Positions 28,660-34,465 of a DNA stretch of 55,314 bases are shown in pieces. Source of the DNA: Pseudomonadota bacterium. GTDB taxonomy: Bacteria; Myxococcota_A; Bradymonadia; UBA4248. The stretch is taken from NCBI GenBank assembly GCA_017464085.1, contig JAFUEE010000185.1, positions 1 to 55,314 of the forward strand. Reading direction: 5' to 3'. The notes below the pieces were generated by a model. That model searched no databases and was not told where the DNA came from. It saw only the letters and a list, made by a program, of their open reading frames with translations. The number at the start of each line of letters is the position of its first letter. Position 1 is the first letter of the stretch. The translations under genes were made by a program, and so were the position numbers.

Positions 28660-29562
28660 TTACGGCAGAAGATGTGAGGCGCCCGGGAGGCTCTGTCCGT
28701 TGACTACTGGGCCGACGGGCACGAAAGGCGGAGCAAATGTCGGGATATTGCCGGTGGACATGACCATATTGATGGTCTGTGTGGATACCCAGATGAGGAA
28801 GCCCATCGAGAGGGAAGTCGCGATGGCCTCGAAGATTGTCTTGTGGATATCGTCATGGCATTTTTCAGCGACGCCGTTATCGAAGTTGTTGAGCATGGCT
28901 TTTTTGAGTTTTTCCGGGGTCGTGATGTCCGCGAGGCCGGTTGCCGGGCATGCGATGAGCGGCCAGGTGATGTTGGGCATCGGGGGGGCGACGGGGCCGG
29001 GGAATGCGGCGAATGCGGGATACCACGGGAAGCCGGGGATCATGACGCTGTCGACATAATTTTTGAGGCACTGGTTGACACCCTTGCCGACGGCATCGCG
29101 CCATTTGCTATAGTGTTTGCCCATCGCGAATTCAGCGTGCCCGGGATAGGTTTTGAAGAGCTTGAAGAAATCGGTTTTTGTGCCGAGGCAGCCCTTTGAG
29201 CCGACGGCGCAGGGGCCGTTCACCTTGAGGTTGCTGAATGTGAGCGTGAGTCGCCAGATATTGAAAGCATAAGAGACGGCATCGATCTGGGTGCTGATGA
29301 ACTTTTTGTAGGTCTGTGTCATCTCCTTTGCGGTATCGAAGTGATACTTGTGATTATCCTGAGTGGCAAAGTAGGTGACGAGCCCATCTGCTGCGGGATA
29401 GCCCTGTCCCCAGTTGCTTGCGCCGACGCCGTCGTGATAATTCTTGGCTTCTTCGAAGCCTTTGGCTGCTGGCGCTTTCCAACTGTCTTTAGGCGGCATC
29501 ACATGCTGCTTGGATGCTACAGATAAATCGGCCAATACTTTGATAAAAGTTACGTTCGCCAT
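28660..29562 (-). CDS. Conserved-looking protein of unknown function
   Basis: The protein has 300 residues. I do not recognise a family. There is no signal peptide. The first half is polar (KNYHDGVGASNWGQGYPAAD, then VTYFATQDNHKYHF). The second half has proline-rich parts (PWYPAFAAFPGPVAPPMPNI) and a single hydrophobic segment near residues 245-265 (ATSLSMGFLIWVSTQTINMV), ending in a Pro/Gly-rich tail. It contains five cysteines. GGAG stands 5 bases before the ATG. It is a single-gene unit with its own terminator. The proline-rich close and lack of signal are reminiscent of phage-tail-like structural proteins, but that is only an impression. Confidence 0.65.
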   Translation of the reverse strand: MANVTFIKVLADLSVASKQHVMPPKDSWKAPAAKGFEEAKNYHDGVGASNWGQGYPAADGLVTYFATQDNHKYHFDTAKEMTQTYKKFISTQIDAVSYAFNIWRLTLTFSNLKVNGPCAVGSKGCLGTKTDFFKLFKTYPGHAEFAMGKHYSKWRDAVGKGVNQCLKNYVDSVMIPGFPWYPAFAAFPGPVAPPMPNITWPLIACPATGLADITTPEKLKKAMLNNFDNGVAEKCHDDIHKTIFEAIATSLSMGFLIWVSTQTINMVMSTGNIPTFAPPFVPVGPVVNGQSLPGASHLLP

Positions 29563-29933
29563 GGTAACTCCTTTCGCGAAGCGGGTATTACAACACACAC
29601 AAAATACACCAGAAATAGTCTATATGCAAATTCGTTTCCCGTCTATGACTTTTCCATGTCGTTCGCTTTTTTTGCGCGCATGCGGCCATTTTGTCTGGGC
29701 GCGAGTCGCTCTGGCTGGGGATTTGCGACCCCATTGTGCGCGCATCAAAAGGCTTTCGCCGTATGCCGCAAGGCATAGGCGAAATCGGCCGGCGTGGCGG
29801 AGACAGCCGGCCCTGCTTGAAAAATCGTACCATCTTACAGCACGTGAAAATCATAGACAATAGACGATGGCTGCATTTTCGCGTATGTTATAAGCGTATT
29901 CGGGTCGTTTGTGCCTGTAGCTAGGGGATTGTG
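29563..29933. other. Intergenic region with hairpins
   Basis: No gene is supported. The TAT/ATA hairpin at 29754-29784 and a second stem (CGGCCGGC/GCCGGCC, about 29786-29812) are present. Short frames across these palindromes are not convincing. Confidence 0.5.
29754..29784 (+). repeat. Bulged TAT/ATA hairpin element 8
   Basis: The left arm TTTCGCC-G-TATGCC and the right arm GGCATA-GGCGAAA pair perfectly except for the single G beside TAT; the loop is GCAA. Confidence 0.88.
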
Positions 29934-32039
29934 ATGACTGTACAGCTCTCATATTCTGTTGGCGATGTGGTTGAATTCGCTGACAAAGCCAAATTCCATC
30001 TCGGCGTTGTGGTCGCGGTGGATGAAAAGACTTCCAAAATCAGGGTGGTGAATGTTTCCGGGCGAGAGCTCGTGCTGCCGCCCAAGCAGATCATGCATAA
30101 GCTTGGCGCGCGTATCGCGACACAGCTGCCGCTGAGCAATATCCAGAACGAACTGCTCTCGATAGATTCACGGGCGACGCAGGTGATGCCGCAGTGTGAT
30201 GTCGAGGCGCTCTGGCAGCTTGTCGGGCAGGATTATGATGAGATCTCGGTCGATGATTTGACGGCGTATGCTTTCGATGCGCCGGATGCAGTCCGAAAGC
30301 TCGCGATGATCCGCACGCTTCGCGAGGATAAGGTCTTTTTCAAGGCGATTTCGCCCCAGGTATGCGCGCCACGGCCTGAAAGCGTCGTGCTTGACCTTCA
30401 GAAGCAGCAGGCGCTGAAGGCGCAAAAAGAGGCTTATCGTGCGCGCTTTGTCGAGGAAGCGGCTGGAATGCTGCGGATGAGCGAGGCTGAACGGCTTCAG
30501 GCTTTGGAGGAGGGCAGCCTGCCGTCTGCGGATGTCATCGATGCGTGGAAAATTGTCGAGCAATATGCCGTGCTCGGGAGCGATGCTGATGATAAGGCTG
30601 AAGCGGAACTCCTTCTGGAGCGCGTGCAGAAGCGCATTGATCGCGGCTTTGCAGGAACCGCTCACCTGAGGGCGCGCGCGTTTTTGCGCGAATGCGGCTA
30701 CTGGGCGCCCGGCACGAATGTCGCGCTTCTGAAATATGAGATTCCTGTTGAATTTTCTTCGGAAGCTGATGATGAGGCGCTTCGCATTTATCAGGGCTCG
30801 GTGCCGACGGAAGGCAGGACAGACCTGACACATCTCGAACTGTTCTCCATTGATGACTCGGACACGCTCGATATCGATGACGCGCTTTCGATCGAGCGGC
30901 TTGAGGGTGGCGCGTTGAGGCTTGGCGTGCATATCGCTGCGCCGGCTGCAGCGGTCGAATTTGGGTGCGCGCTTGAACGGGAAGCGAGAGGACGGGCGAC
31001 GTCGATTTATCTGCCAGAACAGCGCATTCCCATGATGCCGGCGATACTCAGCGAAAATGCGCTCAGCCTGATGCCGATGCAAAAGCGAAACGCGCTGTCA
31101 TTTATGATCACCTTTGACGCGGATTTTAACATCACGCATCAAAATATCGTGCCTTCTGTCGTCTGTTCTCGCCATCGGCTTTCGTATGACACCGTGGAGA
31201 GCCTCATCGAGAATGGAAATGATGCCCTTTCGGATGATATACGCCTGATACAGGAAATTACTGAATTTTCTGCGGCTAATCGCCGTTCGCGCGGCGCGGT
31301 CGATATCGATATCCCCGAATATAAGCTCACGTTTGATGCATCGTCCGGACAGTATGCGCTTCATCCGATTGATACCGCCATGATGAGCCGTCAGCTCGTC
31401 TCGGAATGCATGATCCTTGCGAATGCATTGGCGGCGGAATTCTGTGATGCGCATGATATTCCGGCGGTTTATCGCATCCAGCCAGCGCCGGTAAATATGC
31501 CGCGCCAGGAGACGCTTGATGAGTTGCCGAATGATCTGAGCCGTGCGTATGCCGTGAGGCGCTGCATGATGCCTGCGGCTGCATCTCTGACCCCCGGGCT
31601 TCATGCGGGGCTTGGCTTGGACAAATACCTTCAGGCGACGAGCCCGCTGAGGCGTTATGCGGATCTGCTCTGCCATTATCAGCTCGAGCATTATTTCGTG
31701 CACCAGACGCCTCGGTTTGATTCAGAGGCGTTCAACACCATTCTTGCGGAGACTGACCTGGGGCTGTCGCATGCCAGGTCCGCTTCGCATGAGGCGTATC
31801 AGACCGCGACACTGATGTATTTGAAACAGCTCGGCAATGTGCCGATTGAGGCCATGATTGTGCAGTATCCGTCCGACCGCGGTGATATCGCGCAAGTCGT
31901 GCTCGTCGAAACGCAGCTTCGCGCCACAGTCGCGACGAAAGGCCGGCTGCCCATTGGCACGATATGCACCGTCAGCATCGACAATGTGCGCCCGGAAGAG
32001 GGATCGCTCCTTCTGCAGTTCAGAGATGTCGTTTCATGA
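29934..32039 (+). CDS. RNB-domain exoribonuclease (RNase II/R family)
   Basis: The protein has 701 residues. The N-terminal 280 residues start with a small beta-domain (VQLSYSVGDVVEFADKAK...VVVAVDEKTSKIRVV) followed by helices. The RNB catalytic domain spans about residues 295-610, with the metal-binding aspartates in FSIDDSDTLDIDDALS, the HIAAPAAAVEFG segment, and RRSRGAVDIDIPE and YLQATSPLRRYADLL further on. A short C-terminal S1-like part follows. The layout resembles the short RNase II type of cyanobacteria/plastids more than E. coli RNase R. AGGGGA precedes the ATG at 29934. The stop overlaps the next start as ATGA, so the two are translationally coupled. Confidence 0.9.
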   Translation: MTVQLSYSVGDVVEFADKAKFHLGVVVAVDEKTSKIRVVNVSGRELVLPPKQIMHKLGARIATQLPLSNIQNELLSIDSRATQVMPQCDVEALWQLVGQDYDEISVDDLTAYAFDAPDAVRKLAMIRTLREDKVFFKAISPQVCAPRPESVVLDLQKQQALKAQKEAYRARFVEEAAGMLRMSEAERLQALEEGSLPSADVIDAWKIVEQYAVLGSDADDKAEAELLLERVQKRIDRGFAGTAHLRARAFLRECGYWAPGTNVALLKYEIPVEFSSEADDEALRIYQGSVPTEGRTDLTHLELFSIDDSDTLDIDDALSIERLEGGALRLGVHIAAPAAAVEFGCALEREARGRATSIYLPEQRIPMMPAILSENALSLMPMQKRNALSFMITFDADFNITHQNIVPSVVCSRHRLSYDTVESLIENGNDALSDDIRLIQEITEFSAANRRSRGAVDIDIPEYKLTFDASSGQYALHPIDTAMMSRQLVSECMILANALAAEFCDAHDIPAVYRIQPAPVNMPRQETLDELPNDLSRAYAVRRCMMPAAASLTPGLHAGLGLDKYLQATSPLRRYADLLCHYQLEHYFVHQTPRFDSEAFNTILAETDLGLSHARSASHEAYQTATLMYLKQLGNVPIEAMIVQYPSDRGDIAQVVLVETQLRATVATKGRLPIGTICTVSIDNVRPEEGSLLLQFRDVVS

Positions 32040-33259
32040 GAATGCGTTTTGCCTTTATATTCCTGGCCCTGCTTTGTGCGCTTTCAGCTTGCGGCAAAGG
32101 CAGCTCTGAGGCTCAAAAGCAGACGGTGACTATTGATGCCGCATTTGTGCCCGAGAATACGCCTGCTTCAGCTGCGGCGGCGCTGACAGAGGCTGAGCGT
32201 CTTTGCTCGGAAAAACGTTTCGCGGAAGCCAGGCGCTCGCTCTATCATGCGATGCTCGTCTATGGAAGTTCGGATGCGCTTGAAAAGGCTTACGCATTTG
32301 CGATCGAGCATGATCCGGATCTGACGGCCATGCCTGTGCAGATGACTGTCGGGGAGGATCTGACGCAGCTCAGGAAACTAGGAGGCGGCAGCTCTCTGGT
32401 CTATAAGTTCCTCAAGGACAAGGAAACTGTCGCGGCATTCAAGCCGTTTCAGAAGCGCTATCAGTCGAACTATCGCGCGGAAATCGCCGCATATCGGCTC
32501 TGCCCGGTGATGAAATGCGGATTTGATGTGCCGGTCAACTTGCCGGTCTATTTCGATTTCGATGATTTTTCCCGGCTCTATGCGCGCAATTCCAAGAATC
32601 CGCAGAAGGAATTCAAGGAGATCATTCCCACGCGTCGGAGCGACGGTTCCTATATCGTCGAGGGCACGCGCAAATCATGGATTCCTGATTTTGCCGATTT
32701 TCCGATAGAGTTTTCGGACATCTGGAAGCCATGGCTCAATCCGGGCGTGACCAAAGAAGCGCTCAAGGCGGAGGCCGTTTCGCTGCTTCCTGAGTTTGAG
32801 AAACGCCATGCATCCGGCAAAAAGCTCGTCTCCAAGCTCGAGCCGCATCTCAAGGGGCTCAACCTTTATGCCCTGGGGAGACAGATATCGAACCTCATCG
32901 TGTTTGATTTTTTGATCAACAATTGGGACAGATTCAGCGGGTCTGAGAAACTTTATGGTGTGAACTGCCAGATTTCGCATGGGCGCTTCATGTCGATCGA
33001 CAATGGCGCATCCTTTTCGCCGAGCGCCAAGGAAAAGCCCGAGCGGCATCTCCATGAAATCAGCCGTTTTTCGCGGCTGACTTATGAGGCGATCAAGCGC
33101 TTTGGGGAGTGGGATATGTACGCCTATCTGTTTCCGAATCCGTCCCAGTTTGAGCGCGCGAAGTTCGAGATGTTTCAGGCGCAGTGCCAGAAATTTTTAG
33201 AATATGTCGAGTCCTGCATCGCCAGGAATGGCGAAGCGGAAACATTTTTCTTTGAGTGA
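32036..33259 (+). CDS. Lipoprotein with a Fam20C-like secretory kinase domain
   Basis: The 407-residue protein has a lipoprotein signal with lipobox LSAC (cysteine at residue 19) and then a kinase-like domain of the Fam20/HipA-type fold. Visible key positions: a Gly-rich segment (116-118), the FKP motif (lysine 136, expected to hold ATP), the RAEIAAYRL helix (glutamate near 150), NNWDR with the putative catalytic D298, and DNG with the metal-binding D322. These match the order ALFKP...AEIAAFHL...NMDRH...LDNG of animal Fam20C. The lipobox places it outside the cytoplasm, so it may phosphorylate exported proteins or glycans. It overlaps the RNase gene by 4 bp and lies 3 bp before pilD. Confidence 0.8.
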   Translation: MRMRFAFIFLALLCALSACGKGSSEAQKQTVTIDAAFVPENTPASAAAALTEAERLCSEKRFAEARRSLYHAMLVYGSSDALEKAYAFAIEHDPDLTAMPVQMTVGEDLTQLRKLGGGSSLVYKFLKDKETVAAFKPFQKRYQSNYRAEIAAYRLCPVMKCGFDVPVNLPVYFDFDDFSRLYARNSKNPQKEFKEIIPTRRSDGSYIVEGTRKSWIPDFADFPIEFSDIWKPWLNPGVTKEALKAEAVSLLPEFEKRHASGKKLVSKLEPHLKGLNLYALGRQISNLIVFDFLINNWDRFSGSEKLYGVNCQISHGRFMSIDNGASFSPSAKEKPERHLHEISRFSRLTYEAIKRFGEWDMYAYLFPNPSQFERAKFEMFQAQCQKFLEYVESCIARNGEAETFFFE

Positions 33260-33262
33260 TCT

Positions 33263-34465
33263 ATGAACGAAACTTTGCCTGGCCTGCTCCCTGTGCTGTA
33301 TGTCTTCTGCACGTTGTTTGCCGCATGTCTCGGGTCGTTTGCCAATGTGGTGATCTACCGCGTGCCCAATCACCTTTCGATTGCATGGCCGCCCAGCCAT
33401 TGCCCGAAATGTGATTCGCGGATCAAGCCGTATGACAACATTCCGATACTTTCCTGGCTGATTCTTCGCGGCAAATGCCGCAACTGCAAGGCGCCGATTT
33501 CGCCGCAGTATGTGATTATCGAGGCGGTGTGCGCGATTTTTGGCTTTTTCCTCTGCCGTCAGATTTTTGAGCCAAATCTTGGCTATCTGCTTCTGGACGG
33601 CGTGTTTTGGCGTTTGCTGCTTCTGTTTGCGTCGCTGTCGATTTTTCTGGTCGGTTCGCTGGCGCTAGCAGTCATGGATATCAAGACGACGGAGCTTCCG
33701 CCGGAAGTCGCGCTGCCGATCGGTGCGATCGGTCTTCTGACGGCTTTTGTCATTCCCGAAAGCTGGCCCTACAGCGCGATTGTTGGCAATGTCTCCGGTC
33801 TGGATGCTGTGCTCGGCGGCCTGATCGGCGGCGGTCTGGTCGTCACGATTATTGGCGTTTATTACCTGCTGACAAAGCGAATCGGCATGGGGGGCGGCGA
33901 TATCTGGATGATGGTCATGGTCGGGGCATGCCTCGGCTGGGAATGCCTGCCCTTTATATTTTTAGCGTCCAGCGTGCAGGGCATCATCGCGGCCGTGATC
34001 GCGATCGCATTCGGGAAGAAACAGCAGACCGAAGATCAGCAGGGGCTGTTCAGAAATCAGGTCGTGGCAGAAGTCGAGGCGGAGCTCTTGAAGAAAGACC
34101 TGCCCGATGCCGGCGCACCCGAAATGCCTGATGGCTCGAAAGCTAAAGGCGCTGAAACGTCTGAAGGCGCAGAAGCTGAAACGCCTGACGATGCGAAATC
34201 CGAAAAATCAGAGCGAGCAAACTCCGAAACGTCAGAAAGCGAGGAAATAAAGGACGAGGCGCGCGGAAGCGAGGCACGCGAGTCTTCTGAAGAAGCGAAG
34301 CGCGCGGATGCAGGCGAAGCGGCGGAGCCTGAAACAGGCAAGCTCGCGGTGCCTTATGGGCCGTTTATCGCGCTTGCGGCGATTGAATATGTGTTCTTTG
34401 GAAAGTATCTTCTGCCGCTGATCAGCGGCGGCGTGCTCACGCCGTGGGGATTTATTGTATTTTAA
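33263..34465 (+). CDS. pilD: Prepilin peptidase/N-methyltransferase PilD
   Basis: The 400-residue membrane aspartyl protease (A24 family) cleaves and methylates type IV prepilins, serving the pilus system at 1472-8476. It has the N-terminal domain with two CxxC pairs (CPKCDSRIKPYDNIPILSWL and CRNCKAPI) and the two catalytic aspartates in VMDIKTTELP (about residue 140) and GMGGGDIWMM (about 213). Family size is about 250-290; the excess is a Glu/Ser/Lys-rich acidic insert (about residues 270-365) before the last membrane segment. The gene follows the Fam20-like gene by 3 bases. The last 14 bases overlap the convergent gene on the other strand. Confidence 0.95.
   Translation: MNETLPGLLPVLYVFCTLFAACLGSFANVVIYRVPNHLSIAWPPSHCPKCDSRIKPYDNIPILSWLILRGKCRNCKAPISPQYVIIEAVCAIFGFFLCRQIFEPNLGYLLLDGVFWRLLLLFASLSIFLVGSLALAVMDIKTTELPPEVALPIGAIGLLTAFVIPESWPYSAIVGNVSGLDAVLGGLIGGGLVVTIIGVYYLLTKRIGMGGGDIWMMVMVGACLGWECLPFIFLASSVQGIIAAVIAIAFGKKQQTEDQQGLFRNQVVAEVEAELLKKDLPDAGAPEMPDGSKAKGAETSEGAEAETPDDAKSEKSERANSETSESEEIKDEARGSEARESSEEAKRADAGEAAEPETGKLAVPYGPFIALAAIEYVFFGKYLLPLISGGVLTPWGFIVF

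Follow-up and report, generated by a model that had tools for sequence, protein, structure and literature searches.

The putative kinase gene and its neighbours

In the 55,314-nucleotide stretch of gut-bacterial DNA analysed here (the window), a gene coding for a kinase-like lipoprotein lies between the genes of an RNB-domain ribonuclease and of a type IV prepilin peptidase (Table 1). The start of the kinase gene overlaps the stop of the RNB gene by ATGA, and from this overlap co-transcription of the two genes is inferred to be likely. The prepilin peptidase gene begins 3 bases downstream of the kinase gene. A scan for promoters and terminators gave matches no commoner than expected by chance. 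The order RNB-kinase is kept in the family to which the window belongs and, loosely, in a sister family (L036). A prepilin peptidase gene follows the kinase gene at loci L003, L005, L035, L038, L039 and L040; it is not adjacent to the kinase gene in L037, nor in the sister family. The other paralogue types of the kinase family have different neighbours. On the other side of the RNB gene, and adjoining it, a conserved 312-aa protein of unknown family, without any Pfam match, is encoded on the minus strand (28663-29598); it is 64-86% identical in L003, L005 and L035.

A sequence-only reading of the locus had named both neighbours, including the ATGA overlap, and these were confirmed by Pfam. Its hint of a link with pilus proteins is weak, and a functional link is not supported. 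The prepilin peptidase was rejected as a partner of the kinase, the partnership being unproven, because this adjacency is confined to the window's own family whereas that of the RNB gene is broader. The prepilin peptidase of the window is also unusual in having an acidic loop rich in Ser and Glu, about 90 residues long, which precedes its last helices and is much shorter in relatives. This loop was considered as an S-x-E substrate and rejected, because among relatives it varies or is short, and because it probably lies in the cytoplasm.

The open reading frame of the kinase gene contains a longer in-frame start at 31964. The start at 32036 is nevertheless likely to be the one used, in view of the signal peptide and of the start of the relative L003. 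The 407-residue product, referred to below as the window protein, thus has the N-terminus MRMRFAFIFLALLCALSAC-GKG, a lipoprotein signal peptide. The lipidated residue, Cys19 (codon 32090-32092), is followed by Gly at +2 and not by an Asp retention signal, from which an outer-membrane destination is inferred to be probable. The L003 orthologue is 80% identical and shows the same overlap with its own RNB gene. Comparison with this orthologue gave a dN/dS of 0.10, as compared to 0.08-0.10 for the neighbouring genes, showing that the gene is under purifying selection. The reading frame, the lipobox and the residue numbering proposed earlier (K136, the glutamate, which is E149, D298 and D322) all held. 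Used as a single query, the window protein found zero matches in the PDB, nothing above cut-off in Pfam and NCBIfam, and no match in PHROGs.

Table 1. Coordinates of the genes, of the parts of the window protein and of the pseudokinase paralogues
Feature	Coordinates	Strand	Basis
RNB-domain ribonuclease (RNase II/R type)	29931..32039	+	Pfam PF00773, E 2.6e-79
Kinase-like lipoprotein gene	32036..33259	+	ORF, 407 aa + stop (stop inside coordinates)
Its product, a Fam20-related exported lipoprotein kinase	32036..33259	+	31-member alignment, AlphaFold2 model, profile and Foldseek matches to Fam20
Lipoprotein signal peptide and lipobox LSAC	32036..32092	+	sequence; export signals family-wide
Three N-terminal helices, TPR-like, residues 46-91	32171..32308	+	AlphaFold2 helices 46-58, 62-76, 80-91
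GGG (116-118), glycine-rich loop, invariant	32381..32389	+	31-row alignment
K136, ATP/ion-pair lysine, aligns with human Fam20C K285	32441..32443	+	alignments
E149, ion-pair glutamate, aligns with human Fam20C E311	32480..32482	+	alignments, family profile
Near-invariant cysteines C156 and C161, probably paired in a disulfide (inferred)	32501..32518	+	31-row alignment
N296-W-D298-R299, catalytic motif; D298 aligns with Fam20C D458	32921..32932	+	alignments, family profile
N310, invariant Asn past catalytic Asp; candidate metal ligand replacing Fam20 E306 (inferred)	32963..32965	+	alignments
D322-N-G; D322, metal-binding aspartate, aligns with Fam20C D478	32999..33007	+	alignments, family profile
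Type IV prepilin peptidase	33263..34465	+	A24_N_bact 6.8e-33, Peptidase_A24 7.9e-14
G043 pseudokinase paralogues	L074:3164-6043; L086:2891-4447; L087:3-1931		comparison of active-site columns

Active-site residues and predicted fold

Among the invariant columns of the 31-row alignment are G116-G118, K136, E149, D291, N296, D298, R299, G308, N310, D322 and N323. Seven of these residues (K136, E149, D291, N296, D298, R299 and D322) remain invariant across the 31 homologues at identities down to about 30%, and are kept in 50/50 intact bacterial rows of a wider set. This set comprised 53 bacterial rows, the three exceptions being pseudokinases. The motifs FKP, RAEIAAYRL, NNWDR and DNG, pointed out by the earlier reading, were confirmed in that order. 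They are not due to chance, because they are invariant in 31 homologues, the gene has a dN/dS of 0.10 and the predicted fold is that of a kinase.

The animal Fam20 group (PF06702), which acts on secreted proteins and on sugars, comprises the protein kinase Fam20C, the xylose kinase Fam20B and the pseudokinase Fam20A. In human Fam20C, K285 and E311 form an ion pair, D458 is catalytic, D478 is the metal-binding aspartate, and E306 comes from a loop specific to Fam20; in Fam20A this glutamate is replaced by Gln (PMC4421793). The window protein shares with animal Fam20 the kinase core, the K/E ion pair in FKP...AEIAA, and FDFL..N.DR then DNG..F in the same order. In contrast, the Fam20-specific loop is missing from the bacterial proteins compared, and the position of E306, which lies five residues ahead of the ion-pair Glu, holds Ser144 in the window protein and is variable elsewhere in the family. 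Instead, every intact bacterial member in the comparison carries an Asn a short way past the catalytic Asp, at D+12 for most of the window clade and mostly at D+5 to D+8 in a bridge group described below. We infer that this Asn would be the usual catalytic-loop metal ligand, and that animals would use E306 in its place. Fam20 proteins also have four conserved disulfides (PMC5865150), none of which is present in the window protein. Its only conserved cysteines, C156 and C161, fall where the Fam20 rows have no cysteine. The lipid anchor and the TPR-like N-terminus further distinguish the window protein from animal Fam20; in homologues of the window kinase, weak matches to TPR_19 (Pfam) were found.

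The AlphaFold2 model of the window protein, built on the alignment, showed a kinase fold with high confidence (pLDDT 91.5, pTM 0.88). When this model was compared to the PDB with Foldseek, six Fam20C chains came on top (4e-8 to 4e-7), followed by PI4K-II (1e-5) and then by PI3K, HipT and HipA. TM-scores to Fam20C were only 0.44-0.46, with high rmsd; the model therefore predicts a common topology with differing details. With the model of a bridge-group member, the 28 best PDB matches were all Fam20 chains.

The sequence-only reading had assigned to the protein the Fam20C pattern of lysine, glutamate, catalytic aspartate and metal aspartate, and would have been refuted by a predicted fold without the kinase core or by loss of D298 or D322 in close homologues. 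The order of the four residues held, the kinase core is present in the predicted model with Fam20C as best match, and neither aspartate is ever lost among close homologues. The claim is thus not refuted, and the Fam20C pattern holds only in part: because E306 and its loop are absent, we call the window protein a relative of Fam20 and not Fam20C.

Relationship to Fam20 and distribution of the family

Homology of the window family to Fam20 is shown by profile searches. The profile of the window family (A1), searched against all PDB sequences at E up to 10, returned five sequences, all of them Fam20, with human Fam20C at 3.3e-6 and the motifs in register. The window protein itself scored 13.9 bits against the Pfam Fam20C model, below the gathering cut-off of 26.8. 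In other classes of the phylum there is a second group, shorter than the first (A2, the bridge group), whose members exceed this cut-off, with up to 59.6 bits and E-values reaching 4.6e-16. Searched against the PDB, the A2 profile matched Fam20C (6.7e-39), hydra Fam20B (5.5e-32), Fam20A (7e-32) and worm Fam20 (2e-26), the next unrelated chain appearing only at 0.28. Profile-profile alignment of A1 with A2 (hhalign) gave 2.9e-41. These searches tie the family to Fam20 specifically, and not to HipA, CotH or Hanks kinases. Matches to Pfam Fam20C above cut-off were found in 32/379 genomes of the phylum and in none of 14 well-known control genomes, the only genomes beyond the phylum that were examined.

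In a tree of 56 rows, the window falls within a well-supported clade (100/100). In the same tree, which is unrooted, animal Fam20 stands beside six bacterial rows with a support of 100/99, on a long branch; these rows (L066, L069 and L076-L079) are all of one family. The animal rows were only the stretches aligned in the A2-profile search of the PDB, and no outgroup was included. An ancient gene transfer behind this grouping is therefore no more than a possibility.

A single-sequence search detected homologues in 98/379 genomes of the phylum, which we infer to be Myxococcota, and a profile search did so in 36/57 genomes of the class. A genome usually holds two to four of them; that of the window carries its second copy on a different contig. 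Relatives include metagenome-assembled genomes from water-buffalo rectum and goat omasum, and one bin that we take, from its label, to come from termite gut. Two anatomies were distinguished. Members of the window type (also L051-L053) are lipoproteins of about 400-600 aa; those of the other type have 570-1,200 aa and a single transmembrane segment preceding the kinase domain. Several of the latter carry an N-terminal zinc ribbon (CPGC...CPKC). In L041, L044, L045, L047, L049 and L088, the zinc ribbon is followed by a long linker, presumably in the cytoplasm, after which come a single transmembrane segment and then the kinase domain. A DUF72 gene follows the long family member in L044, L045 and L047. 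Another lipoprotein (L050:6962-9100) has a formylglycine-generating-enzyme-like domain (FGE-sulfatase, 6.9e-9) ahead of its Fam20-related domain.

A crude scan detected a lipobox or a transmembrane/signal segment in 47/57 members, as compared to 52/164 for the remaining genes of these loci. On inspection by eye, a lipobox or a Tat-like start was seen in nearly all of the ten others, and one is cut by a contig end. From the sequences, we infer that nearly all members are exported from the cytoplasm, a further likeness to animal Fam20 that rests on prediction alone for the bacterial side. The window protein belongs to a large family of exported bacterial proteins, inferred to be kinases, that seems not to have been described before.

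Pseudokinase paralogues, another likeness to animal Fam20, were found in one related genome, G043. It has three paralogues (L074, L086 and L087) in which the equivalents of K136, E149 and D322 are all lost together, and two of them lack D298 as well. An intact copy, L088, is found alongside. By analogy, this set recalls the Fam20A/Fam20C pairing; there are no data on a partnership.

Proposed function and its alternatives

The export signal, the conserved active site and the predicted kinase fold of the window protein are shown. Our best reading, which we hold with moderate confidence, is that of a phosphotransferase related to Fam20 that is lipid-anchored outside the cytoplasm and probably has envelope or secreted proteins as substrates; activity, metal use, a protein substrate, the exact location and the nucleotide source are all inferred. 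The earlier interpretation as an extracytoplasmic, Fam20C-like lipoprotein kinase is thus supported overall, apart from the pilus link and the full Fam20C pattern. In our model, the protein would be exported by Sec, lipidated and transferred to the outer membrane, and its domain would fold outside the cytoplasm, as a catalytically complete kinase with a putative C156-C161 disulfide. K136 and E149 would hold the ATP phosphates, D298 would serve as catalytic base, and D322 together with N310 would bind metals. The TPR-like N-terminus may position a protein partner. Most likely, a nucleoside triphosphate would donate its phosphate to Ser/Thr of a protein that is secreted or belongs to the envelope.

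The chief weakness of this model is the nucleotide source. The sequence-only reading had noted that ATP is scarce outside the cytoplasm, and this remains a problem since the source is not identified. To our knowledge, there is no ATP pool outside the Gram-negative inner membrane; lysed neighbours, the gut lumen or exported ATP may be candidates. The absence of E306, indispensable in Fam20C, also counts against the best reading, as do the low score of the window protein against Pfam Fam20C, the modest TM-scores to Fam20C and the lack of its substrate residues. None of the residues distinguishing Fam20B and Fam20C substrates (PMC5865150) is kept in the window protein. The Lys/Arg position is occupied by A325, which is neither, and therefore the substrate cannot be read from the sequence.

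The main rival, which remains possible, is an exported glycan or lipid-headgroup kinase that would act, as Fam20B does, on a sugar of the envelope, of an exopolysaccharide or of a glycoprotein. In its favour, Fam20B activity is older than that of Fam20C in animals (PMC5865150), hydra Fam20B is among the matches of the bridge profile (5.5e-32), and PI4K-type kinases are the next fold matches after Fam20. However, the sugar-binding His (DRH) and Lys (DNAK) of Fam20B are F300 and A325 in the window protein, no glycan gene is adjacent, and the TPR-like helices suggest a protein partner. That the kinase fold would serve another reaction, such as AMPylation, or a nucleotide-binding regulator with little phosphotransfer, appears unlikely. 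Kinase-fold proteins with other chemistry are known (PMC7948968), the E306 essential to Fam20 is missing and there are clear pseudokinases among the paralogues. Yet no canonical catalytic residue varies within the window clade, the real pseudokinases of the family have lost K and E along with the metal D, and none of the intact bacterial members compared lacks the Asn that follows the catalytic Asp.

Least likely of all, and very improbable in our view, is a HipA-, CotH- or SCO1664-type kinase whose likeness to Fam20 would merely be that of the general kinase clan. SCO1664 (TIGR03843), PI3/PI4 kinases and HipA belong to the same broad clan; these families are cytoplasmic. HipT/HipA and PI4K do appear lower in the fold list, and TIGR03843 weakly matches some relatives. 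However, these fold matches are weaker than those to Fam20, the profile searches return Fam20 only, and the profile matches are far below curated cut-offs: TIGR03843 reached 12.9 bits as compared to a cut-off of 172.4, and HipA_2 was matched at just 0.055 in 2/31 members and not by the window protein. CotH spore-coat kinases are bacterial and described as similar to Fam20C. Like them (PMC12189002), the window protein is predicted to be an atypical bacterial kinase on an external structure. Unlike them, it is an exported lipoprotein rather than a spore-coat protein, and the CotH profile is unmatched at E up to 1. A Hanks-type identity was rejected, the window protein having no match to the Pkinase model. 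The window's own genome (G000, 4.3 Mb) contains about 70 matches to Hanks-type protein kinases.

FAM20 has been placed in a eukaryote- or Metazoa-specific cluster (PMC9758233). In the open-access literature searched, which excluded preprints and subscription papers, Fam20 is treated as animal or eukaryotic and no bacterial Fam20 proteins were described; the only bacterial comparisons were the distant link to CotH and certain Legionella families placed together with FAM20/CotH. Some bridge proteins may already carry the label Fam20C in public databases, by way of Pfam. A bolder reading, possible at most since its tree has a long branch and no outgroup, is that of a phylum-wide system of phosphorylation by exported proteins, in which active kinases would be partnered by pseudokinases like Fam20C/Fam20A in animals, and from which animal Fam20 would have arisen by gene transfer, the catalytic-loop Asn being swapped for the E306 loop. 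Exported bacterial relatives throughout the phylum would offer a route to the origin of the animal secretory kinases. The exported family also makes it testable whether Gram-negative bacteria phosphorylate proteins or glycans beyond the cytoplasm, in a place where ATP should be scarce.
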